Source: an uncultured Porphyromonadaceae bacterium
GTDB lineage: Bacteria; Bacteroidota; Bacteroidia; Bacteroidales; Muribaculaceae
Length of the DNA stretch: 10,514 nt
Assembly (NCBI GenBank): GCA_947174735.1
Contig: CAMWKC010000058.1
Span: 1 to 10,514, forward strand
Direction of reading: 5' to 3'
This document shows, one piece after another, positions 656 through 10,514 of the stretch; the first letter of the stretch is position 1, and the number at the start of each line of letters is the position of its first letter. Made by a program: the position numbers and the translations under genes. The notes under the pieces are model-generated. The model did no database searches. It had not been told where the DNA came from and saw only the letters and a program-made list of their open reading frames with translations.

Positions 656-3600
656 ATGGCCAGAAATGTAATATCAAACGCAACAGTCAATCTTAATGTC
701 AACGGTGCACAGGCCGCACAGCAACTTGACCGCCTTCGCCAGCGTGCAGGTCAGCTTAAAGCCGAAATACAGGCTATGGAGACCGGAGCTGTGCCGATGG
801 ATCGGCGCCGGCTATCACAACTCTATCAGGATTTTCGAAACGTATCACGTCAGATTTCGCAGTGTCAATCCGAAATCGGACGTGTTAACGACGTTATGCG
901 CCGCCTTAACACGGCATCGCCGAAGGAGCTTATGTCAGCGATGCGGACATTGCGTGCACAGCTTAACGCAATGGATAGGGGTTCCGAGGCGTGGGAAAAT
1001 CACAGGCGCAAAATACAATTACTCCGTCAGGAGTTACAGAGGGTTAATTCTACGCTCACAGTCTCGGAAAGTAAATGGCAGCAAATCAAAAACTTTTTAG
1101 GGGATATCCAAAATCAGATACTCGGAATTGTTGCCGGCATTACAGGATTAATAGCAGTTGGCAGAGATGCTGTAAGCAGTTATACCCAAATGGGCGAGTC
1201 ATTGGCAGACACTCAAAAATTTACAGGACTGTCAGAGGCAGAAGTAAGAAAGCTTAACGACGCTTTCAAGGAGATTGACACCCGCAACACACGCGAGCAA
1301 CTTAACGCTTTGGCTTCCGAAGCTGGTAGATTAGGCAAAAATACGTCGGAGGCTGTAAAAGGCTACGTCGAGGCAGGCCAGATTATCAAGGTAGCTCTTG
1401 ATGATCTTGGCGATGGGGCTACACAGACGATAGCCAAGTTATCCAATATTTTTAACGTCGAGCAAAAGTTAGGTACAAAACAAGCGATGATGGCGATTGG
1501 CTCTACTGTTAACGAGCTGTCGCAAAACTGTACTGCAGGCGCTAACTATCTGGTAGAATTTACTCAGCGCATGGCCGGCATTGGTGCACAAGCCGGAATG
1601 ACAATTCCGCAGCTAATGGCGTTTGCCGCAGTATTGGATTCAAACGGTCAGGCTTGCGAGATGTCAGCAACAGCCGTACAACAGGTTATCATGCAACTCG
1701 CCAATAAAAACAAAGAGTTTGCAAAGATATTGGGACTTGATGCCGAAGAACTTGCAAAGACTCTTAAAACGTCGGCAAAAGACGGTATAATGATGTACCT
1801 TGAGGCTATCAAAAGGTTATCGGATAAGACATCGGCAAGTAACGCAACTGTCGCCATTGCTCCGCTATTTAAGGATATGGGACTTGATGCCGCCCGTCTG
1901 TCGGCTGTGTTATCGACATTAGCTAACAAAATCGAGGACCTAAAGTGGCAATTCGGAGAGGCTGACAAAGCTTTTAACGAGGCTGTATCAGTCAATAACG
2001 AGTATAATATCTTCAATTCCACTAAACAGGCGGAAATAGACAAGGCTAAAAACAAGATGCACGAATTGTCGGTGGAACTCGGCGAAAAACTGTATCCTGT
2101 CATGACTCATGTATATTCTTCGTCGTCGCTGATGCTTAAAGCGATGATGGAGATTATAACATTTGCCGAAAAGCACAAGTGGGCAATCATCACACTGACT
2201 ACGACAATCGTAGCCTACACAGCCGCTATCTACGCTACTACCATTAAATCTCATGCACTGACAATAGCGACAAAAGCGCTGGCAGCAGCTAAAGCAATGT
2301 ATGCAGCCAGCGTAAGAACCGCACACGCACTCACTATCGGTTTTAACGGTGTTGTCGCTCTGCTGACAGGTAATATCGGCAGGGCACGCGCCGCCATGCG
2401 TGCGATGACAGCCGCAATGGGTGTAACTCCCTGGGCTGTGTTGGCCGCCGCAGTAGCAGCACTGACAGTGACTATAATCAGAGCCGCCACAAAATCCGAC
2501 GAATTTGCCAAAAAAATACGTGATTTATCGCGTATCGGTGCCGAATATCGGGCAGAAGCAGTCAAAGAGCAACAGCAGATTGATAAATTGATTGGTACAC
2601 TAAAAGGTGCATCGGAAGGCACAAAAGAATATCGTGACGCCAAAGAGACTATTATCAGACAATATGGTAAGTATCTCGGAGGACTGATAGACGAAAAAGG
2701 CCAGATAATCGATCTCGCACAGGCTTACGATATTCTGTCGGAGGCCGTATCGAGGTCTATGCGTAAGCGTGCTATTGCCGCCCAAGAACAAAAAATCGAA
2801 GAAGCGTATTTGGAGAATGTCGGCGAAAAACTGTCGAAACTCGAAATATCGCTTAAATCATACGGCGCAACACCGTTGCAGGTACAGACGGTTATAGCCG
2901 CCATGAACGAGGCAGCAGCAAAAGGTCAGAAGCTATCCGGAGAAGCTGCAACCATAATCCGGGAATTGTCGAAAAATACTGCTACTCTTGATAATAAGAC
3001 AGGCAAAAAGCTGTCATTAGGTCAGGCTACATGGGCAGCCAAGACCGGTATATCTTTTGCTGACGTAGAATCGCCGATAAAGATAATCAAAGATATTCTG
3101 CACGATTACGACACAAGATCTAAGGGTGTGGAGACAGTAAGAGCGATGGATCCTGACAAAAAGCTTCCGGGGCAAAACGGATCAATAATGGTTGACAGCA
3201 AGGTACAGCTTGACGCGGTGCTTGCAAAACTCGATAAGATTATTGAGACCGGCGAAGAATCGGCTGTCGCTTTGCCAAAAGACTTCAGGCCGGAACAGCA
3301 GAAACAGGAGAAACCGGCAGAAAACAAATTTTTACAGACAGGCGCACAGCCGGCGCTTTTGGGAGCGGGTGCTCCCGGCAAATCTCTTACAGAGATTGCC
3401 ACCGAAAGCGTTAAATCTGTCTCCGTACAGAGTGACAACGGTATGATCACAGTCACACCGAAGCAGGCCGAGGAAATTAAAAACAAAATCGTTCGGGAAA
3501 TGCGGCTGCAGGGCATGATGCCGCACACAGAGGCAGAACCGGATAAGCCGACCGGCGAGGATTTTAAATACGTATCGGAAAAAGAGGCACAAGCCCAGGC

Positions 3601-5572
3601 ACGCAAAGAAGCTGCTGAAGCCCGCAAAGAGGCGATTAAAGCCCATACGGACTATCGTCAGGGACTCGAGGCTTTAAAGGCTGAGTACAGTCAGGCAGAT
3701 GCAGATATTATAGCCAAATATGCCGCCGGAGAAATCGACTATGTTGCATACCTAACTAAGCGTATGGAGGCCGAACAGTCGTATTGCGACAAGTCTCGTC
3801 AGTACATGGAGCGCCATTTGTCAGCTATAAAAGGCATCGATGTGACAGAGGATAAGGATTATCAGGCCATGATGCAACGACGTGAAGCTGCAACGGCAAA
3901 ATATACCGACAAGATTATTGATTTTCAGGACAAATCAATTTCGCGTCGGGAAGCCGCAGAACTCGACCGGGTAAAAAAAGACGAAGCACTTAACGTCCGC
4001 CATGCCCAAAACACACTTTCGGCAGAACTCAAACGGCAGGACGAAATCACACGTATAACTGTCGAGGCGCTGGAAAAACGTCTTGCCTTATATGCTAAAG
4101 GCTCCGAAAAGTGGGAACAAATCGTGCAGGAAATCGAGCAAAAATATCTCGACGGAAAGGCGGCTAAGAATCGTGCATACGAAGAAAAGGCGCTGGAGCT
4201 ACGCAAGCAGTACGAAAAGGTTTCCGCCGCTGACCGTTTCCGCATGGAATCAACTCTTTTAAGCCAGCTTTTTGCAGCACGCAAAATATCATACACTGAG
4301 TTTTTGGAGTGGAGACGTAAGCTACAAGAAAAATACCGCGACGAATTGCCGGGGAATGTGCCTGAGTCTATCTCCACAAAGCGGAAGAAAGCGGAAGAGG
4401 AAATGAATAATCGCATAAGAGAGATTGACAACGCCCAGAAAGCTGGTCTTATAACAGAAAAAGAGGCTGAAAGCAGAAAAAAATCTCTTTTACCCGACGC
4501 CATCAGCGAGAGTATGACCGGGGCTGCCGAAAAATTCGGAACATCATGGCTATCTACCATTGCTCAAGTAGCTACGTCGTTTTACGACCTTTGGCAGTCG
4601 GCAGGCGACGGCGCCATGTCATTTGCCGACAAAATGCAGATGTTGGGCAATGCAGCCGCAGCGACATTTGCGGCAGTGTCGGAAGGCATGAGACTCGCTT
4701 CGGAATTTGCACAGGCAAACGCTGAAATCGAAATTGCAAAAGTCGAAAAACGATACGAGCGCGAAAAAGAGCTTGCTCAGGGCAATAATGCCATCACAAC
4801 GGCATTAGAGCAAGACAAGCAGGCCAAGATAGCCGAAATCAAAAATAAGGCACAGGAGGCCGCTTTTTCGATGCAGGTTATACAGGCAGTAGGTCAATCG
4901 GTAACAGGCGCTATCAATGCATATACATCGACGGCTGCTATACCGGTTGTCGGTCCGGCGCTGGCTCCGGCTGCTGCTGCTGTAGCATTGGCTGCCGGCA
5001 TGGCAAATGTAGCATTGCTCAAAAAACAGGCCGAGGCGTCAAAGGCTCAAGGTTATTCCGAGGGTGGTTTTACTCCGAAGGGCCGCAGAGACGATGTAGC
5101 CGGCGTAGTACATGCAGGAGAATGGGTAGCATCACAGGATTTGGTTAACAATCCGGAGGCCGCCGCAGTCATCACACTGCTTGAGCGTGCACAGCGATCT
5201 GGCGATGTGTCGTTGCTCAAACCGCTGGCAGCCGCCGCAGGTCTGGCACGACAAAATAATTACGTAGGATCAATAACTTTTGACGATGCTTCGCGTGTCG
5301 TCGCTACCGTATCGGCGGCACGGGCCGCCAGAGCTTCGGAGGCTGTAGTATCAGGAGTGAGGACAGTTAACAGTACCATTGCGAGTGCTCCGGCAACGGT
5401 TCCAGAGGCAGCCAACTCGGAGGATAGCCGACTTACAGATGTGTTAGAAAGACTTTCCAAACGTCTTGATGAGCCGTTTGTTACTATCAACTCAGTTACA
5501 GGGCCAAACGGCATAAATAATGCTTATAGCAACTATAACAGGATTATTAATAATAAGAAAAAATACAAATGA
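656..5572 (+). CDS. phage tail tape measure protein, TP901-like
   Basis: This 1638-residue protein would set the length of a phage tail tube and help DNA entry into the cell. The N-terminus 'ATVNLNVNGAQAAQQLDRLR' followed by about 130 residues of heptad-like helix resembles tape measure proteins of Bacteroidales prophages. A TP901-type core spans about 175-480 ('LADTQKFTGLSEAEV', repeated Ala/Gly-rich helices). Hydrophobic segments lie near 157-170, 509-530, 592-612 and 1422-1452. A Pro/Gln-rich linker falls at about 871-915, and Lys/Glu-rich coiled coil runs from about 980 to 1400. Near 1466-1493 is the Gly-rich segment 'GGFTPKGRRDDVAGVVHAGE', a pattern common near tape measure C-termini. 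By the known ratio of roughly 1.5 angstrom per residue, the tail would be about 240 nm (inference). The start is the first ATG of the open frame; no Shine-Dalgarno is seen. The stop overlaps the next gene by 4 bp. Long antisense open frames inside it are shadows. Confidence 0.93.
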   Translation: MARNVISNATVNLNVNGAQAAQQLDRLRQRAGQLKAEIQAMETGAVPMDRRRLSQLYQDFRNVSRQISQCQSEIGRVNDVMRRLNTASPKELMSAMRTLRAQLNAMDRGSEAWENHRRKIQLLRQELQRVNSTLTVSESKWQQIKNFLGDIQNQILGIVAGITGLIAVGRDAVSSYTQMGESLADTQKFTGLSEAEVRKLNDAFKEIDTRNTREQLNALASEAGRLGKNTSEAVKGYVEAGQIIKVALDDLGDGATQTIAKLSNIFNVEQKLGTKQAMMAIGSTVNELSQNCTAGANYLVEFTQRMAGIGAQAGMTIPQLMAFAAVLDSNGQACEMSATAVQQVIMQLANKNKEFAKILGLDAEELAKTLKTSAKDGIMMYLEAIKRLSDKTSASNATVAIAPLFKDMGLDAARLSAVLSTLANKIEDLKWQFGEADKAFNEAVSVNNEYNIFNSTKQAEIDKAKNKMHELSVELGEKLYPVMTHVYSSSSLMLKAMMEIITFAEKHKWAIITLTTTIVAYTAAIYATTIKSHALTIATKALAAAKAMYAASVRTAHALTIGFNGVVALLTGNIGRARAAMRAMTAAMGVTPWAVLAAAVAALTVTIIRAATKSDEFAKKIRDLSRIGAEYRAEAVKEQQQIDKLIGTLKGASEGTKEYRDAKETIIRQYGKYLGGLIDEKGQIIDLAQAYDILSEAVSRSMRKRAIAAQEQKIEEAYLENVGEKLSKLEISLKSYGATPLQVQTVIAAMNEAAAKGQKLSGEAATIIRELSKNTATLDNKTGKKLSLGQATWAAKTGISFADVESPIKIIKDILHDYDTRSKGVETVRAMDPDKKLPGQNGSIMVDSKVQLDAVLAKLDKIIETGEESAVALPKDFRPEQQKQEKPAENKFLQTGAQPALLGAGAPGKSLTEIATESVKSVSVQSDNGMITVTPKQAEEIKNKIVREMRLQGMMPHTEAEPDKPTGEDFKYVSEKEAQAQARKEAAEARKEAIKAHTDYRQGLEALKAEYSQADADIIAKYAAGEIDYVAYLTKRMEAEQSYCDKSRQYMERHLSAIKGIDVTEDKDYQAMMQRREAATAKYTDKIIDFQDKSISRREAAELDRVKKDEALNVRHAQNTLSAELKRQDEITRITVEALEKRLALYAKGSEKWEQIVQEIEQKYLDGKAAKNRAYEEKALELRKQYEKVSAADRFRMESTLLSQLFAARKISYTEFLEWRRKLQEKYRDELPGNVPESISTKRKKAEEEMNNRIREIDNAQKAGLITEKEAESRKKSLLPDAISESMTGAAEKFGTSWLSTIAQVATSFYDLWQSAGDGAMSFADKMQMLGNAAAATFAAVSEGMRLASEFAQANAEIEIAKVEKRYEREKELAQGNNAITTALEQDKQAKIAEIKNKAQEAAFSMQVIQAVGQSVTGAINAYTSTAAIPVVGPALAPAAAAVALAAGMANVALLKKQAEASKAQGYSEGGFTPKGRRDDVAGVVHAGEWVASQDLVNNPEAAAVITLLERAQRSGDVSLLKPLAAAAGLARQNNYVGSITFDDASRVVATVSAARAARASEAVVSGVRTVNSTIASAPATVPEAANSEDSRLTDVLERLSKRLDEPFVTINSVTGPNGINNAYSNYNRIINNKKKYK

Positions 5573-7386
5573 TTACAGTCATAATAGAGGGTCAGGAGGC
5601 TTGCTTAGAGGATAAGACTACATTTGATTTTGTCACAGAATCGAGACTATTCTCAGACTCGGACGGATATACATTTAACATGACTTTTCCGTTGCGAGGC
5701 TGTCAGCAGAATATAGATATCTTCGGATATATTCACCGCGCAGACATACATAAGCAGCCGAGGCTGATGCAGTGCCATATCATAGCGCCGGAATTTAGCC
5801 GTTCCGGAGCGCTGGTAATCACTTCGGCTGACGAGTCAGCCGTAACAGCACAGTTTATCGTCAATGCTACGCCTGACGGTACAGATTCACCGCTCGATAC
5901 TCTTTATATTGACGAGTTGGATTTAGGCAGGTACCCGGAAACCGACCCGTCTAAGATTAAGCCTTCGCAGGCGATTAACGGCAGCTCGGACAGCGGACCG
6001 TTAGATGCAGTGTGTCTGCCGTGGCGAACAGAGCAGTATGATGTAGTCAATAACCGTTTTGTTGACCTTGGACACTGGCACGATGAGACAAGGCGCCTGT
6101 CATGGCAGCCGAAACTGATATATATACTCCAGCGGGTAGCACTGATGGCCGGCTATACATCGGATTTCCGACGTATAGCAGTAATAGACAAATGGCGTAA
6201 GGCAATAATCTGTAATACTCTGCCGGGAGTGTGGGGTATTACAGATTTTGCCGCAGCGCTCCCACATTGGACCGTAAGAGAGTTTTACGAGCAAATGGGC
6301 CTGTTTATGCAGGGGGTTTTCCGTATCGACGAGCAAGCAAAGGCCATAACATTTGATACATACACACATATTCTGTCAGGGGCCGGCGTCACAGTGCTTA
6401 ACAGAGTCGTAGACGAGTATTCTTCGGAGATAGACCGGGAGGCAGAGGATAGTGATTTTTTGCCGACAAAGCGCGTAAAATACACGGATAATTCGGCCAC
6501 AATCTGGAAATATTGGGTGTGTCCCTGGGTATTTAAGTCAAAATCGCCCGTATGGGCACCCGGACGAGTCGAGACCGTAGAACAACTGTCAGGAGATATG
6601 CACTATGGAGACAGCGACGGCCATCGGCATGTTATAGGCGGAGGATCCGGTAATTTGGTGTATTGTGCGGAAATTGATACGTGGTTTTCGCCACGTACAG
6701 TAATTATATATTCCGCAGGTCACACAGACGATGCCACCGCCCAACAATATCCGTATGCAAAGTTTATACAGTGGGAGCCGGTCAACATCTTTGCACCGAA
6801 GGATTACAACGAAAACGATAATTATACGACGCTGGACGTATGTCCGGCAACAGTCGATTATGACCTTACGGGCAAAGTCATCTGGCTGCCTCTGTCATCA
6901 GGCGATGACAGTACTTCCAGAACTCTCGATACAGGATATTTCGAGCAGACAGAACGCCCGAAAGGATTACGACTGCCGAACGGTGTGTGGCTGTCATCGG
7001 AAATCGTGATGTCGTATGACCGGGCACAACACGATATTGAGATACATTCGGAGGATAATTCGTCGGAATTCTATTCGCAAATCTTTATCGCCTTCCAAAA
7101 TCCGGACGTTGACAAACGTCCGTGGCCGTTGGTAGATGTCGATGTAGCCGGCAAAATATATTCTACAGAAAGGTTTTGCCGACTCGATGGGCAGCTTTCC
7201 GATTATATCGACCCTAAGGTTAAGTACACGTTTCAGTTTATCGCAGACAGTATTCCGGACGTCGAAAGCCTATTCTATGTACACGGCCAACCGTACATCT
7301 GCCGAAAAATTACAGTATCTCTGTCGGCATCGTCAGGCATGGGTAAGGTCATGACAGGGGAGTTTTACAGGGTGGTCAAAATATAA
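5569..7386 (+). CDS. putative phage tail-tip / baseplate hub protein
   Basis: This 605-residue protein follows the tape measure gene with an ATGA overlap, so the two are almost certainly translationally coupled. In tailed phages this slot usually holds the distal tail or hub protein, which closes the tail tube and anchors receptor-binding parts. The sequence is rich in beta strands, has no signal peptide or membrane segment, and contains many aromatic and acidic residues. The N-terminal part (about 1-110) is a beta-rich domain. Near 230-262 is 'LPHWTVREFYEQMGLFMQ' followed by a strand-turn-strand, a segment I associate with uncharacterised Bacteroidales prophage proteins in this position. The C-terminus 'PYICRKITVSLSASSGMGKV...GEFYRVVK' also looks like a conserved terminal domain. 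The name rests on position and overall character, not on a recognised catalytic motif; Dit or a tail-fibre adaptor is an alternative. It is the last gene of the operon. Confidence 0.6.
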   Translation: MITVIIEGQEACLEDKTTFDFVTESRLFSDSDGYTFNMTFPLRGCQQNIDIFGYIHRADIHKQPRLMQCHIIAPEFSRSGALVITSADESAVTAQFIVNATPDGTDSPLDTLYIDELDLGRYPETDPSKIKPSQAINGSSDSGPLDAVCLPWRTEQYDVVNNRFVDLGHWHDETRRLSWQPKLIYILQRVALMAGYTSDFRRIAVIDKWRKAIICNTLPGVWGITDFAAALPHWTVREFYEQMGLFMQGVFRIDEQAKAITFDTYTHILSGAGVTVLNRVVDEYSSEIDREAEDSDFLPTKRVKYTDNSATIWKYWVCPWVFKSKSPVWAPGRVETVEQLSGDMHYGDSDGHRHVIGGGSGNLVYCAEIDTWFSPRTVIIYSAGHTDDATAQQYPYAKFIQWEPVNIFAPKDYNENDNYTTLDVCPATVDYDLTGKVIWLPLSSGDDSTSRTLDTGYFEQTERPKGLRLPNGVWLSSEIVMSYDRAQHDIEIHSEDNSSEFYSQIFIAFQNPDVDKRPWPLVDVDVAGKIYSTERFCRLDGQLSDYIDPKVKYTFQFIADSIPDVESLFYVHGQPYICRKITVSLSASSGMGKVMTGEFYRVVKI

Positions 7387-7471
7387 CATGACTTTGTTAT
7401 GTATAATTAACTGTTAACTTATAAAACGATTTTTTATTAACAAATTTTAACGCGCCCCAAAGATTTCTACC

Positions 7472-7496
7472 CTCAGGCCGGGTGGCCGAGTTTTTT
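7472..7496 (+). terminator. Rho-independent terminator of the tail operon
   Basis: The stem CTC(A)GGCC (7472-7479, A7475 bulged) pairs with GGCCGAG (7484-7490) around the loop GGGT, and six T residues follow directly (7491-7496). It lies 85 bp after the stop of the hub gene and separates the late phage operon from the replication region. Confidence 0.8.
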
Positions 7497-7525
7497 GCTT
7501 TGCTCTTTTTTGCCTTACTTTGTCG

Positions 7526-7578
7526 GGACTTTTAAAGTAATGCAGCTCGCTACGCTCACTGCATTACTTTAAAAGTCC
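7526..7578. repeat. Perfect 20-bp inverted repeat upstream of the iterons
   Basis: GGACTTTTAAAGTAATGCAG (7526-7545) and its exact reverse complement (7559-7578) enclose a 13-nt loop (7546-7558, CTCGCTACGCTCA). The loop is itself a mirror repeat around TA. No T-run follows on the plus strand, so it is not an obvious terminator. It could be a second transcription barrier, a single-strand origin or a cruciform structure beside the replication origin. Confidence 0.85.
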
Positions 7579-7581
7579 TAC

Positions 7582-7598
7582 ATGCTTATCTAAAGCAT
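7582..7598. repeat. Small hairpin in the AT-rich origin segment
   Basis: ATGCTT (7582-7587) and AAGCAT (7593-7598) flank the loop ATCTA. It lies between the long inverted repeat and the iterons. The role is unknown and the short stem could be chance. Confidence 0.35.
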
Positions 7599-7660
7599 AA
7601 GATATAATATGCTATCGGTTAAGTCATTTTAAAGATATTCAATAAATTGCAAAGGCGAAA

Positions 7661-7733
7661 CCGGACATTTATAGTACATAACCGGACATTTATAGTACAT
7701 TTTAAGCTATGAAATCGGACATTTATAGTACAT
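7661..7733 (+). repeat. Three 19-bp Rep iterons
   Basis: CCGGACATTTATAGTACAT occurs at 7661-7679 and 7682-7700, and again with a single change at the first base (TCGG...) at 7715-7733. Start-to-start distances are 21 and 33 bp, close to two and three helical turns, so Rep would load on roughly one face of the DNA. All three point the same way as rep. Confidence 0.92.
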
Positions 7734-7742
7734 ATAAAAATT

Positions 7743-7775
7743 AAGTCGGACAACCGTTTTGCAGTTGTCCGATTT
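7743..7775. promoter_or_regulatory. Inverted partial iterons: probable Rep operator
   Basis: TCGGACAAC (7746-7754) and GTTGTCCGA (7764-7772) form a perfect 9-bp inverted repeat, extended by two A-T pairs and a G-T pair. The arms share the iteron core TCGGACA. The -33 element of the rep promoter lies in the loop, and the right arm lies between -33 and -7. In Rep_3 plasmids such inverted half-iterons bind Rep dimers and repress rep. Confidence 0.8.
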
Positions 7776-7789
7776 AATTATTAACTTTG
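7758..7789 (+). promoter_or_regulatory. rep promoter
   Basis: TTTG (7758-7761) and TAACTTTG (7782-7789) are 20 bp apart, an excellent match to the Bacteroidales promoter pattern. Transcription would start near 7795, leaving a leader of about 20 nt before the ATG at 7816. Confidence 0.8.
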
Positions 7790-7815
7790 CAAAGTCATTT
7801 AAAAATTAGAGTATT

Positions 7816-8925
7816 ATGGACAAATCAAGAGCTAATAGTAAGGTCATTAAAATTACTTCTCCTGAAGAAGCATCAAGGGTAATACAGACCTATATACTGA
7901 CTACTGCAAAATACGATTTCTCGGTTTTCGAGAAACGTATTCTTTACTACTGTGTGTATGTTGCTCAGGAGTGTTTACAAGGTGAAAAATTAGAGGGATT
8001 GACTTTCGATAAACTACGGAAAAAACCGAAGAAAGAAATAACTATGCCGATAAAGTATATACTTCAGGGAGAAGAAGACCATAATCACATGGCTGTTAAA
8101 AATGCGTTATTGGCTCTGATGGATAAAAAGATTGTTTTCGAAAACAGTAGTATATGGGGTGCAATGCATCTTATATCAGATCCGATAATAAAGAAATATG
8201 ATAAGGTTGTAACTTTTGAAGTAAGCAATATTATATGGCGTTGTATTCTTGATTTTTCAAGGGGCTTCCATGCTTTTGAATTGCAGGTAGCAATGAAATT
8301 CAAAAGCGTTTATTCAATGAGATTTTATGAATACGTAAGTAATCCCAAAAAAGAATTTCATCCTACACTCGCAATAGATGACATAAAAAGATGGTTCTGT
8401 ATCGAAGACAAATATAAGGAGACAAAAGACTTTATAAAAAGAGTTATAGAGCCGGCAAAAAAAGATCTTGACGAAAAAGCTCCATGGTCTTTTGACTATG
8501 AAAAAATCAAGTTACCGGGAAATAGAAAATATACTCATATTAAGATAATACCGAAAAGATGTCCACAAAACGAAAATAAAAAATTACAAGCATCATTAGA
8601 GGAAAGGAGAACAAATTTCTCATGGACAGTAAAGGACAAAGAAGTGAGATTATACCTTACAGATATAATAGGATTTACACAAACAGAACTAAAAAATACA
8701 CGTGATATATGGGGAGATGCTTACAGCATATTCGGACAGGAACTAAGAACGATATTACAGGACAAGCTAATAGTAGCTCGTCAGCTACAATCGGAAGGAC
8801 GACTTAAGAAAGATATAAAAAGCTATATCGTAGGTGCCATTAAAAGTATGGTGGAGGCGGTCAAAAAAACTAATCCGGTAAACGATATGGCAGATAAAAT
8901 TGTAGATAAGCTGGCAAATAAATAA
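7816..8925 (+). CDS. Rep_3-family plasmid replication initiator
   Basis: This 369-residue protein should bind the adjacent iterons as monomers to open the origin and bind the inverted half-iterons as dimers to repress its own gene. It shows the two winged-helix domains of the Rep_3 (RepB/Initiator replication protein) family. WH1 includes 'SVFEKRILYYCVYVA' (36-50). WH2 starts around the hallmark 'SVYSMRFYEYV' (164-174) and continues through 'IDDIKRWFCIEDKYKETKDFIKRVIEPAKKDL' (187-218, the DNA-reading helix region) to 'KYTHIKIIPK' (238-247). Residues 263-369 form an extra helical tail ('IVGAIKSMVEAVKK' near 338-351) beyond the usual core, a feature I associate with Bacteroidales Rep proteins. 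The start is the ATG about 20 nt after the predicted transcription start. Base composition is markedly more AT-rich than in the tail genes upstream, suggesting a separate origin for this module. Confidence 0.92.
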   Translation: MDKSRANSKVIKITSPEEASRVIQTYILTTAKYDFSVFEKRILYYCVYVAQECLQGEKLEGLTFDKLRKKPKKEITMPIKYILQGEEDHNHMAVKNALLALMDKKIVFENSSIWGAMHLISDPIIKKYDKVVTFEVSNIIWRCILDFSRGFHAFELQVAMKFKSVYSMRFYEYVSNPKKEFHPTLAIDDIKRWFCIEDKYKETKDFIKRVIEPAKKDLDEKAPWSFDYEKIKLPGNRKYTHIKIIPKRCPQNENKKLQASLEERRTNFSWTVKDKEVRLYLTDIIGFTQTELKNTRDIWGDAYSIFGQELRTILQDKLIVARQLQSEGRLKKDIKSYIVGAIKSMVEAVKKTNPVNDMADKIVDKLANK

Positions 8926-9064
8926 CCTAAGTCGGAACAACTGTAATCCAACATAAGCAGCCAATAGTATTAAAATTGTTGGAGTTGGAAATCACAAGAT
9001 ATTAGCTGTCAACATTATATTATGTAAGCTGTCAACATTGTTTTCTTTAGTTGACAGCTTATCA
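8926..9064. other. Intergenic region between rep and the minus-strand antitoxin gene
   Basis: No gene is seen. It begins with AAGTCGGAACAAC (8929-8941), which matches the Rep operator arm AAGTCGGACAAC with one extra base. A loose inverted repeat TCCAAC (8947-8952) / GTTGGA (8978-8983 or 8984-8989) could weakly terminate rep. The rest holds the TTGACAGCT repeats described separately. Confidence 0.6.
9004..9061. repeat. Triple AGCTGTCAA repeat with 12-bp hairpin
   Basis: AGCTGTCAACATT occurs at 9004-9016 and 9027-9039, a direct repeat with a 23-bp period. The second copy extends to TAAGCTGTCAAC (9025-9036), which is perfectly inverted as GTTGACAGCTTA (9050-9061) around a 13-nt loop. The hairpin sits 3 bp beyond the stop of the minus-strand gene and so may serve as its terminator, but no clear U-run follows. 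The third copy makes a protein-binding role equally possible. Confidence 0.75.
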
Positions 9065-9253
9065 TCACAGAGAGTCGAAGAATAAATCAAGTTCTTCAGT
9101 AGTGCTGCATGACACACAGAGACCTTCACGACATGCAGCCTCAGCTTCATCGATACGCTTTTGTAAGGCAGGAGTTATCGTTAGATCCTCCGGAGCATGG
9201 TCAAACGATGCCGCGAGATCATTGCGGAAATCTCTTATTGATAATGCGTCCAT
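9065..9253 (-). CDS. Shortened Phd/YefM-like antitoxin, no cognate toxin
   Basis: The 62-residue product starts 'MDALSIRDFRNDLAASFDHA' and continues 'PEDLTITPALQKRIDEAEA', ending '...STTEELDLFFDSL'. The beginning resembles the first helix of Phd/YefM (prevent-host-death) antitoxins, and the rest resembles the acidic, toxin-neutralising tail of Bacteroidales antitoxins that pair with YoeB-like toxins. The beta-strand segment that normally joins them, roughly 20-30 residues, seems to be missing without a frame change (inference from the family pattern). Start at 9253: the longer in-frame starts at 9307 and 9274 lie upstream of, or overlap, the predicted -7 box (9276-9283), so the message would begin after them. 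No toxin gene follows on this strand before rep ends at 8925. It may be a remnant, a regulator of the divergent module, or an anti-addiction protein against a host toxin. Confidence 0.65.
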   Translation of the reverse strand: MDALSIRDFRNDLAASFDHAPEDLTITPALQKRIDEAEAACREGLCVSCSTTEELDLFFDSL

Positions 9254-9275
9254 ATCTCTTGTTTTTAATTTCATG

Positions 9276-9308
9276 CAAAGATAACTATTATGTAACATAC
9301 ATAACAAA
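9276..9308 (-). promoter_or_regulatory. Promoter of the minus-strand antitoxin-like gene
   Basis: Read on the minus strand, TTTG (9308-9305) and TATCTTTG (9283-9276) are 21 bp apart, a good Bacteroidales promoter. The predicted start near 9271 supports translation from the ATG at 9253. Confidence 0.65.
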
Positions 9309-9313
9309 TTTGT

Positions 9314-9321
9314 TATCTTTG
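9314..9321 (+). promoter_or_regulatory. -7 element of the toxin-antitoxin operon promoter
   Basis: TATCTTTG (9314-9321) fits TAnnTTTG and lies 38 bp before the antitoxin start. The expected -33 position (about 9289-9293) reads TATG/ATGT, a poor match, so this side may be weaker than the divergent promoter or need activation. Confidence 0.5.
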
Positions 9322-9359
9322 CAAAAGGTAATTAACTAATAAAGCAAAAAATTAAACAC

Positions 9360-9599
9360 ATGGAAAAGACAATTAAACAGTTACGCAGTAAGAATATACT
9401 GCAAAAGCCGGTGAGAACCGCAAGGGGAGCCAGCGGTAAGACACAGGGAAGGAAGGTAAGGACAATGTGTAATAAACTGATGGAGAAAGAGAGAATAAAA
9501 AGGGATTTTGAAGCTGAACTAAGAGAGGCTTTCCGAGAAATAAGATTGCATCAGGAAGGGCAGTTAGAACTGCCAAATGCTAAAGATATTTTTGATTGA
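9360..9599 (+). CDS. putative antitoxin of a RelE/HigB-type module
   Basis: This 79-residue protein is encoded 3 bp upstream of a RelE-like toxin gene, the usual antitoxin-first order of type II modules. The N-terminal half is very basic (several Lys/Arg clusters in residues 1-46), suggesting DNA contact. The C-terminal half is a charged helix, 'DFEAELREAFREIRLHQEG' (49-67), ending 'LPNAKDIFD', which resembles the toxin-wrapping tails of small Bacteroidales antitoxins. I see no standard helix-turn-helix or ribbon-helix-helix signature, so the fold class is uncertain. The start at 9360 lies about 35 nt after the predicted transcription start. It should neutralise the downstream toxin and repress the operon through the palindromes at 9274-9323 (inference). 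Confidence 0.7.
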   Translation: MEKTIKQLRSKNILQKPVRTARGASGKTQGRKVRTMCNKLMEKERIKRDFEAELREAFREIRLHQEGQLELPNAKDIFD

Positions 9600-9602
9600 C
9601 TA

Positions 9603-9935
9603 ATGGAAGTCAAGCCTACATTAAACTTTATAAGAGCGGCAAAGCCACTTGAAAAAAAATACCGTAGTTTTAAACAGGACTACGAGCATTTTATAGAGGA
9701 TTTAGAAAAGAATCCGGAGATGGGTACCGATTTAGGAGGCGGAATACGTAAAGTCAGAATGGCTATAACTTCTAAAGGGAAAGGTAAATCAGGAGGAGCA
9801 AGAATTATCACATTTAATACAATCCAAAAAAACGGTATTCTGTACCTTATATCTATATATGATAAGTCAGAATATGACTCCGTGAAGGTAGAAGTTATTA
9901 AAAAAATAGTCAAAGAAGAAGAAGGGTTATTATAA
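9603..9935 (+). CDS. RelE/HigB-family toxin
   Basis: The 110-residue product fits small ribosome-dependent mRNA interferases of the RelE superfamily, which cut mRNA at the ribosomal A site when the antitoxin is lost. Signatures are the N-terminal two-helix hairpin (about 10-36), the 'GGGIRKVRMA' strand (45-54), the loop and strand 'GKGKSGGARIITF' (59-71), and 'ILYLISIYDKSEYDSV' (79-94). The GKSGG.R pattern is typical of the HigB2-like branch. The basic residues K60, K62, R67 and K88 are candidates for RNA binding or catalysis (inference by pattern). It starts 3 bp after the antitoxin stop, so translation is likely coupled. On an episome it would act as a plasmid-addiction gene next to rep. 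It is full length and intact. The nearby antitoxin-like gene on the minus strand is not its direct partner by arrangement. Confidence 0.88.
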   Translation: MEVKPTLNFIRAAKPLEKKYRSFKQDYEHFIEDLEKNPEMGTDLGGGIRKVRMAITSKGKGKSGGARIITFNTIQKNGILYLISIYDKSEYDSVKVEVIKKIVKEEEGLL

Positions 9936-9955
9936 GATAAAACCAAAGCTTCTTA

Positions 9956-10010
9956 CACGCCGGGCAACACGCTCGGCGTGCTAATTATCTCACATTTATC
10001 ATAATTAGCA
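9956..10010 (+). terminator. Two overlapping hairpins behind the toxin gene
   Basis: Hairpin A: CACGCCG (9956-9962) pairs with CGGCGTG (9974-9980), extended inwards by G-T, G-C and C-G pairs to a 5-nt loop. Hairpin B: TGCTAATTAT (9979-9988) pairs with ATAATTAGCA (10001-10010). They share bases 9979-9980, so both cannot form completely at once. A T-rich stretch follows, ending in eight T residues (10022-10029). This most likely terminates the toxin-antitoxin transcript. Confidence 0.6.
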
Positions 10011-10082
10011 TTATTATTTCGTTTTTTTTCGTAAGATTTTCCGTTTTTCCGTTTTTTTAGTACGCTTTATTACAGCAACTTA

Positions 10083-10400
10083 CTCCAAAAAAATCGAAAA
10101 ATCGAAAAATCGAAAATATTTTTTATTGTTTTCCGAGACTAAAAACACTCTTTTCACTGTGCCTTTGTGCCCGCCTTTATAAACTATTAAATTTCATATA
10201 TTTAACGGGCACACTTCTATTAAAAACAGTTTGTGCCCGCTATCGGGCACTGTACCCGAAATATAAAAAAATGATTTGTGCCCGCTAATTAATTGATTAT
10301 CAGAGAGGGAACACGGGCACAAATGTTTTCCGTTTCGTGGGACTCAAGAAAAAACAAAGAAATTATTTTTTCGATTTTTCGATTTTTTCGATTTTTTGAG
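10083..10400. other. Large dyad-symmetric, site-rich noncoding region
   Basis: Inverted arms flank a cluster of short binding-site-like repeats. The left arm (10083-10118) contains TCGA at 10094, 10102 and 10110 in the unit TCGAAAAA, introduced by CTCC and seven A. The right arm (10363-10400) is its inverse, with TCGA at 10371, 10379 and 10388, ending in six T and GAG. The arms agree except for a few one-base gaps and A/T changes. Their midpoint, 10241.5, is exactly the centre of the palindrome at 10233-10250. No believable gene lies here. A partition centromere, a second replication origin or a multi-site operator would all fit. Confidence 0.75.
10164..10323. repeat. Six TTTGTGCCCGC-type sites in alternating orientation
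   Basis: Forward copies of TTTGTGCCCGC are at 10164-10174, 10230-10240 and 10275-10285 (all identical). Inverse copies are CGGGCACA at 10206-10213, CGGGCAC at 10244-10250 and CGGGCACAAA at 10314-10323. Orientation alternates strictly: forward, inverse, three times. The middle pair forms the hairpin GTGCCCGctatCGGGCAC (10233-10250). A degenerate half-site GTACCCG follows at 10252-10258. The motif is unrelated to the rep iterons, so a different protein is expected to bind. Confidence 0.88.
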
Positions 10401-10424
10401 TTTAATATATTGATTACTATACAA

Positions 10425-10471
10425 ATAAAAAATCGTAAAGAAAGATTTTTCTTTTCTTTACGATTTTTTAT
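10425..10471. terminator. 19-bp AT-rich hairpin, possible bidirectional terminator
   Basis: ATAAAAAATCGTAAAGAAA (10425-10443) and its exact reverse complement (10453-10471) enclose a 9-nt loop, which a G-T pair narrows to 7. The A-run before and the T-run after make it readable as a terminator on either strand, though only three stem pairs besides A-T are G-C. No gene ends nearby inside the window, so it may serve a leftward gene beyond 10514. Confidence 0.55.
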
Positions 10472-10514
10472 CTGAAAAAGAAATCATAAATAACTGTAAC
10501 GTATTGATTAATAC

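Follow-up and report, generated by a model that had tools for sequence, protein, structure and literature searches.

An alternating six-site array between inverted AT-rich arms, next to plasmid maintenance genes of a Bacteroidales contig with phage tail genes: a tentative centromere-like site

The window analyzed here is a 10,514-nt stretch of DNA that makes up one entire contig (C58) of a host assembly of 388 contigs that is 72% complete; its plasmid and protein relatives point to a Bacteroidales-like host. From left to right it carries an IS200-type transposase, a tape measure gene, a gene for a 605-aa protein, iterons, an operator-like inverted repeat, rep, toxin–antitoxin genes, and the stretch that contains the dyad described below (Table 1). 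The transposase lies at the left contig end (1–113), and positions 34–113 recur at 94% on contig C176. The dyad sits in a 579-bp stretch (9936–10514) whose sole internal open reading frame of at least 60 aa is a mechanical 60-aa frame at 10293–10475. The contig ends at 10514, only about 115 bp beyond the right arm of the dyad.

Table 1. Coordinates of the genes and sequence features in the window
Feature	Position	Strand	Basis or remark
Phage tail tape measure protein	656–5572	+	Family matches
605-aa protein, tail protein by position	5569–7386	+	Adjoins tape measure gene; no family match
Three iterons (GGACATTTATAGTACAT), spacing 21 and 33, likely ordinary Rep origin	7657–7734	+	Repeat analysis
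Inverted repeat with iteron core CGGACA, likely rep operator	7735–7783		Core at 7747 and 7766
Rep_3-family replication initiator, 369 aa	7816–8925	+	PF01051 E 9.7e-16; PF21205 E 2.6e-14
Antitoxin-like protein	9065–9307	-	Related to proteins encoded beside YoeB-family toxins on Bacteroides plasmids
79-aa protein, likely antitoxin partner of RelE-like gene	9360–9599	+	Position; no Pfam match over cut-off
RelE-like toxin	9603–9935	+	PF06296 28.8 bits (cut-off 27)
Left AT-rich arm, (AAAAATCG)n	10086–10132		47-nt inverted repeat with 10352–10398, 79% complementary
Weak candidate Bacteroidota-type promoter: TTTG, 20 bp, TAAATTTC	10164–10195	+	One mismatch to consensus; chance level
Site 1, GTGCCCG (within TTTGTGCCCG)	10167–10173	+	Word count
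Site 2, GTGCCCG (reads AGTGTGCCCG)	10206–10212	-	Word count
Site 3, GTGCCCG (within TTTGTGCCCG)	10233–10239	+	Word count
Site 4, GTGCCCG (reads ACAGTGCCCG)	10244–10250	-	With site 3, forms central palindrome GTGCCCGctatCGGGCAC
Degenerate seventh copy, GTACCCG	10252–10258	+	One mismatch
Site 5, GTGCCCG (within TTTGTGCCCG)	10278–10284	+	Word count
Site 6, GTGCCCG (within TTTGTGCCCG)	10314–10320	-	Word count
Right AT-rich arm, inverted copy of left arm	10352–10398		87% identity in gapped match
19-bp perfect hairpin with A/T flanks, possible two-way terminator	10425–10471		Inverted-repeat analysis

Relatives of the 605-aa protein occur in 131 of 397 family genomes (own genome counted), and in genome G016 such a relative follows a 1611-aa open reading frame that occupies the tape measure position. 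The same protein matches a single phage record (26% identity over 51%) and accounts for the one distant relative returned in total by the protein scans of viral contigs, where a piece of the tape measure protein used as query gave no match. GC content is 48% in the tail genes and 32–36% in the plasmid part, with the drop at about 7.4 kb, so the histories of the two parts probably differ. Near this drop, between the tail gene and the iterons, lies a hairpin with 20-bp perfect arms (7526–7578) that could be a terminator or mark a junction. The presence of tail genes here makes a phage-plasmid plausible, and these genes and the plasmid module, joined in one assembled contig, likely belong to one such element; the GC drop, together with the lack of any match to the 605-aa protein among plasmid records, keeps this from being proven.

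The replication initiator belongs to a group that is common on plasmids, with 291 matching records (the best among the matches listed is 40.7% identical) and 13 closer relatives at 44–62% identity. It also matches phrog_4402, a family of replication initiation proteins (E 3.9e-43), so phages with related Reps exist; a tblastn search of Rep against phage records gave no match. In Rep_3 replicons a core common to the iterons and the rep operator is expected, and an iteron origin of this type has a DnaA box beside the iterons. In the window, CGGACA is found in the iterons at 7662, 7683, and 7716 and in the operator-like repeat. The repeats upstream of rep on four plasmids (L034, L036, L041, and L044) likewise include spacings of 21 and 33; L042 has the same 21/33 spacing but no annotated Rep, and L040 has 22 and 21. 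The window contains no exact DnaA box (TTATNCACA), and the only one-mismatch box right of 7300 is at 8901. The likely Rep sites thus lie upstream of rep, at 7657–7783, and CGGACA has no exact copy in the dyad, which argues that the dyad is not the ordinary Rep_3 iteron origin.

Downstream of rep, the RelE-like toxin is 54.7% identical to RelE from a Bacteroides ovatus plasmid and matches 93 records. No toxin partner was found beside the antitoxin-like gene on the minus strand, and its product has no match among phage records. An exact TTTG-21-TATCTTTG promoter match (9308–9276, minus strand) overlaps the 5' end of this gene. A genome of the same genus (G045) holds a syntenic, decayed copy of window positions 8865–9803 (78% DNA identity), which stops short of the dyad. 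This copy of the rep–antitoxin–relE module occupies 527–1607 of contig C49, where a 20-bp perfect palindrome (209–249) also lies ahead of an ATPase-like frame.

The heptamer GTGCCCG occurs in six exact copies within 10167–10320, in strictly alternating orientation (+-+-+-), and four of the six (sites 1, 3, 5, and 6) extend to the longer word given in Table 1. The sites form three inverted pairs with spans of 46, 18, and 43 bp and spacers of 32, 4, and 29 bp. Site-to-site spacing (39, 27, 11, 34, and 36 bp) is not helically regular. The null model for the sites used 2000 dinucleotide shuffles of 9936–10514 and 7-mers with at least five G/C. Such a 7-mer was present six times in none of the 2000 shuffles and three times per strand in none, with a mean best count of 1.4. 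Without the GC filter the commonest 7-mer is the AT-rich AAAAATC, whose nine copies are equaled by 350 of the 2000 shuffles. Strict alternation is expected by chance in about 3% of cases (668 of 20,000).

Flanking the sites are arms of the TCGAAAAA type whose complementarity is 79–87% across some 47 bp. Perfect inverted pairing within them extends for at most 22 nt (10088–10109 and 10367–10388, 257 nt apart), a length reached by none of 500 dinucleotide shuffles (maximum 16). The alternating six-site array with inverted arms is therefore real, with 0 of 2000 shuffles reaching the sites and 0 of 500 the arms, and the shuffled-sequence control that the earlier note had asked for has left both standing. 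That note had also placed the arms and the central palindrome on an exact common center. The palindrome is centered at 10241.5 and the arm midpoints, from inverted 14-mers, are 10238, 10242, and 10242.5; the claim holds to about 1 bp in two arm registers and is 3.5 bp off for the 22-nt perfect arm. The other two site pairs have midpoints of 10243.5 and 10245. The common axis of sites and arms is good to about 1–4 bp.

Placements as symmetric as the observed one arise at random in 679 of 20,000 cases (about 3%), given alternation and fixed outer sites, and in 159 of 20,000 when orientation is also randomized. The inner halves of the dyad, aligned with each other with the motifs kept, score better than 1000 of 1000 shuffles; once the motifs are hidden by masking, an equally good alignment is seen in 129 of 1000. 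Masked inner halves at chance level mean that the nested symmetry is one of sites and arms and not of the whole 320 bp. Of the three nested levels of symmetry proposed earlier, sites and arms do share a near-common axis, and the spacers are not mirrored once the motifs are masked. The idea of a large decayed palindrome was rejected on the same count.

Several known classes of site were considered and set aside. Chromosomal parS is a TGTTNCACGTGAAACA-like 16-mer, and the sole match within four mismatches is at 1449. The central bases of a telomere resolvase site (telRL) are self-complementary, which the dyad center GCTATC is not. A serine resolvase res site has three dimer subsites of about 25–34 bp, a pattern that does not agree with the spans of the three inverted pairs. 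A MITE was rejected on the finding that outside the window only 16–26-bp stretches match on other contigs. All eight matches to Rfam RNA families listed in 7380–10514 fall below the gathering score. The nearest one-mismatch match to a XerD half-site, at 9994, is outside the dyad.

No relative carrying the dyad region was found among the genomes, plasmids, phages, and viral contigs searched. The paired GTGCCCG motif has no other occurrence in the host assembly, 396 other family genomes lack the three-site pattern, and blastn of the dyad region against phages and plasmids gave only short, low-scoring matches. One DNA-pattern scan of a viral collection matched 14 contigs, with at most three GTGCCCG sites within 350 bp, and two other pattern scans matched no contig; the array as such was not found in that collection. 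One viral contig has 12 copies of GTGGATAA/TTATCCAC on both strands over about 300 bp (8664–8967), resembling DnaA boxes. The genome collection gave one match, on a Saccharothrix contig with a different layout: six GCGTGCCC sites that span 90 bp (4995–5083) as two groups of three. The plasmid comparison set comprised 11 records (L034–L044, 2.9–20.7 kb) drawn from the 291 Rep-matching and 93 RelE-like-matching records, and none of the 11 has a six-site alternating array. Under a looser filter, three of them (L034, L036, and L044) show one word at six or seven sites, with both strands represented; these sites are iterons plus outlying inverted copies and do not alternate. A further record matched by the RelE-like protein, MT836206, was dropped after its array scan was null and no Rep was seen by eye in its list of open reading frames. 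In the literature searched there was no match to GTGCCCG as a whole word in either orientation, and none of the titles listed by topic searches pointed to a Bacteroidales site of this kind.

The nearest likeness in other genomes is on an approximately 4.6-kb Rep plasmid of genome G155 (contig C23), assembled as a tandem. Its array of TGTGCC/GGCACA at 4164–4330 is mostly alternating (+-++-+-), with seven sites in 153 bp, and is flanked by the inverted words TTTCAGCA/TGCTGAAA. Like the dyad, it is intergenic, and it lies apart from the 21-bp repeats before rep. It differs in having TGTGCCA where the dyad has TGTGCCCG, in its other spacing, and in a Rep from another branch. No par gene was seen in the plasmid's list of open reading frames, read by eye without a family search. 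A three-site TGTGCC pattern was found in 28 of 374 order genomes (own included) versus 7 of 374 for the reversed control. Of the 30 loci returned, duplicates and the window included, 20 lie inside frames of at least 100 codons; among the intergenic ones, that of G781 resembles a tandem repeat, that of G637 precedes an ATPase-like frame, and G527 also has an array. Because such arrays, on this wider search, also occur outside plasmids, little weight is placed on the G155 likeness, which may be a coincidence.

A possible link to ATPase genes was also followed. Long perfect palindromes (arms of 32, 17, and 20 bp) lie directly upstream of AAA-type ATPase frames at two loci of the own genome (L124 and L133) and at the G045 locus. 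Among 15 AAA_14 loci in the own genome, four of them below the family cut-off and several with less than 160 bp of upstream DNA, two have perfect inverted arms of at least 17 bp upstream. This link did not explain the dyad.

The layout of the dyad is a variant of known multi-site loci. With the extrachromosomal prophage of mycobacteriophage RedRock it shares a short repeated motif in a prophage-type element, 8 bp in eight copies per parS there and 7 bp in six copies here. Mycobacteriophages Miko and Rachaly, which use RepA and also form such prophages, have an additional parS locus of five direct repeats immediately downstream of repA (PMC7157519). The dyad similarly lies downstream of rep, a likeness of gene order. 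All three mycobacteriophage loci have direct repeats and linked parA and parB genes, in contrast to the strict alternation and the absence of visible par genes here. The type Ib parH centromere of plasmid TP228 has repeats with AT-rich spacers (PMC5016525) and, like the dyad, places them in both orientations; a small ribbon-helix-helix binder and an operon are known there, and neither was found here. P1 parS, also from a phage-plasmid, resembles the dyad in its heptamer sites and irregular spacing; it combines heptamer A-boxes with hexamer B-boxes around an IHF site, whereas the dyad has a single kind of box in a near-symmetric layout. The Rep_3 iteron origins of Bacteroides plasmids are represented on the contig itself, with a related Rep and similar iteron spacing, and from these the dyad is set apart by its location away from the window's own origin, its other sites, and their alternating order.

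The reading that fits best is a centromere-like, protein-loading maintenance site. It is tentative, with less than an even chance, and both binding and an effect on stability are predictions. It draws on the maintenance location, the identical sites in AT-rich spacers, and the absence of the array from plasmid records. Array and arms exceed chance and follow rep and the toxin–antitoxin genes in the maintenance module, and a Rep_3 initiator that has its own separate iterons, accompanied by toxin–antitoxin genes, favors a maintenance site over an ordinary iteron origin. Phage-plasmids rely on partition systems and may carry toxin–antitoxin genes (PMC12977533). An array that serves a larger, low-copy element would also be expected to be missing from the 11 plasmids, none of which has six alternating sites. 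One protein, perhaps a site-bridging dimer, would bind all six heptamers, with the AT-rich spacers helping it to load. The complex might then act in partition, with a motor protein or the host chromosome as its pairing partner, so that the element is passed on at division. The gene for the binder could be located right of 10514 or elsewhere on the element.

The observation in the earlier note that the window offers no obvious binder was borne out, as none of the seven window proteins scanned matches a ParA or ParB family and no regulator was seen. The whole assembly, searched with PF13614 and PF02195, has three matches to the former and one to the latter; a ParA-like and a ParB-like gene occur together on the chromosomal-looking contig C22, and the other two PF13614 matches are in frames of 385 and 796 aa. 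The missing plasmid-type ParA/ParB counts against a centromere-like site and is not decisive, given the incomplete assembly and the contig end so close to the right arm. Also counted against it are the nonhelical spacing, the similar array on the small G155 plasmid with no visible par gene, and the same-word sites on both strands of L034, L036, and L044.

The main rival is an operator bank, which is somewhat improbable. A repressor- or antitoxin-like regulator would act on the heptamers, with several sites looped, and control a promoter in or right of the dyad, either for a lysogeny switch or for an untranslated RNA that stops at the terminator-like hairpin. The 7-4-7 architecture of the central palindrome resembles a repressor dimer site, the region has no clear gene, and the hairpin is close to its right end. 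The 32- and 29-bp spacers, however, are unsuited to one rigid dimer site, and no regulator gene is visible next to the dyad up to the contig end. The Bacteroidota-type promoter consensus is TTTG-N19-21-TAnnTTTG, and the one promoter-like match has its -33 word overlapping site 1 and site 2 after its -7 word. Shuffling 10083–10400 yields an equal or higher number of matches in 236 of 500 cases, so this match carries no weight by itself; only one of the six sites overlaps it, and a sigma-70 scan gave no excess (4 versus 5.4 expected in 8900–10514). Behind the operator bank, in third place, come a second origin or a locus of single-strand hairpins. A second, bidirectional lytic origin, at which an initiator would bind the inverted sites while the AT-rich arm on either side melts, is unlikely. 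The inverted sites are indeed flanked on both sides by AT-rich repeats, and the 100-bp segment that starts at 10393, immediately to the right of the dyad, ranks second among the least stable segments listed for the contig; yet that segment only touches the end of the right arm, and no listed least-stable segment begins in the left arm. CGGGCA, found within the sites, is one substitution away from the six-base Rep core CGGACA, which makes a diverged second Rep conceivable, whereas the window's own Rep has its sites elsewhere, purely direct iterons of the usual pattern are absent, and the nearest approach to a DnaA box is the one-mismatch copy already mentioned.

Single-stranded DNA hairpins working in priming, nicking, or transfer, or a structured RNA, are a still weaker prospect. 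Folded as single-stranded DNA, 10163–10324 forms hairpins between sites 1 and 2, 3 and 4, and 5 and 6 (z -5.6, with none of 200 shuffles as good), and the whole dyad folds with z -9.0, or -8.8 and -8.6 as RNA of the two strands. Inverted sites give such folds regardless of function, no Rfam family scores above gathering, and there is no relaxase among the window proteins scanned. Hardly to be expected at all is an invertible segment or recombination site at which the arms act as crossover sites for inversion of the intervening 257 bp. The 22-nt perfect inverted arms would suit such a role, but the arms are simple AT-rich repeats, and the only recombinase among the proteins scanned is the IS200-type transposase at the left end. 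The earlier note had named a centromere, a second origin, and an operator bank as candidate roles; the array is nonrandom and the plasmid context is real, and the three roles are not separable on a contig that ends at 10514.

The dyad is a real, nonrandom, previously uncharacterized cis-acting site in a plausible maintenance context, and its function is what we infer from that context. A wider proposal is a long shot: that mirror arrays, in which half-sites with a TGTGCC core alternate and are enclosed by inverted arms, form a new class of cis-acting maintenance element, on unrelated Rep_3 plasmids and phage-plasmids of Bacteroidales-like hosts, that would be bound by a host protein and need no Par operon of its own. 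The maintenance of Bacteroidales phage-plasmids at cell division did not come up as a topic among the titles listed in the literature searches. With its six identical heptamers in a compact 160 bp, the site lends itself to identification of its binder. If the dyad is a centromere that has no Par operon linked to it, it would have implications for the segregation of such elements and may offer a stability tag for vectors of these bacteria.
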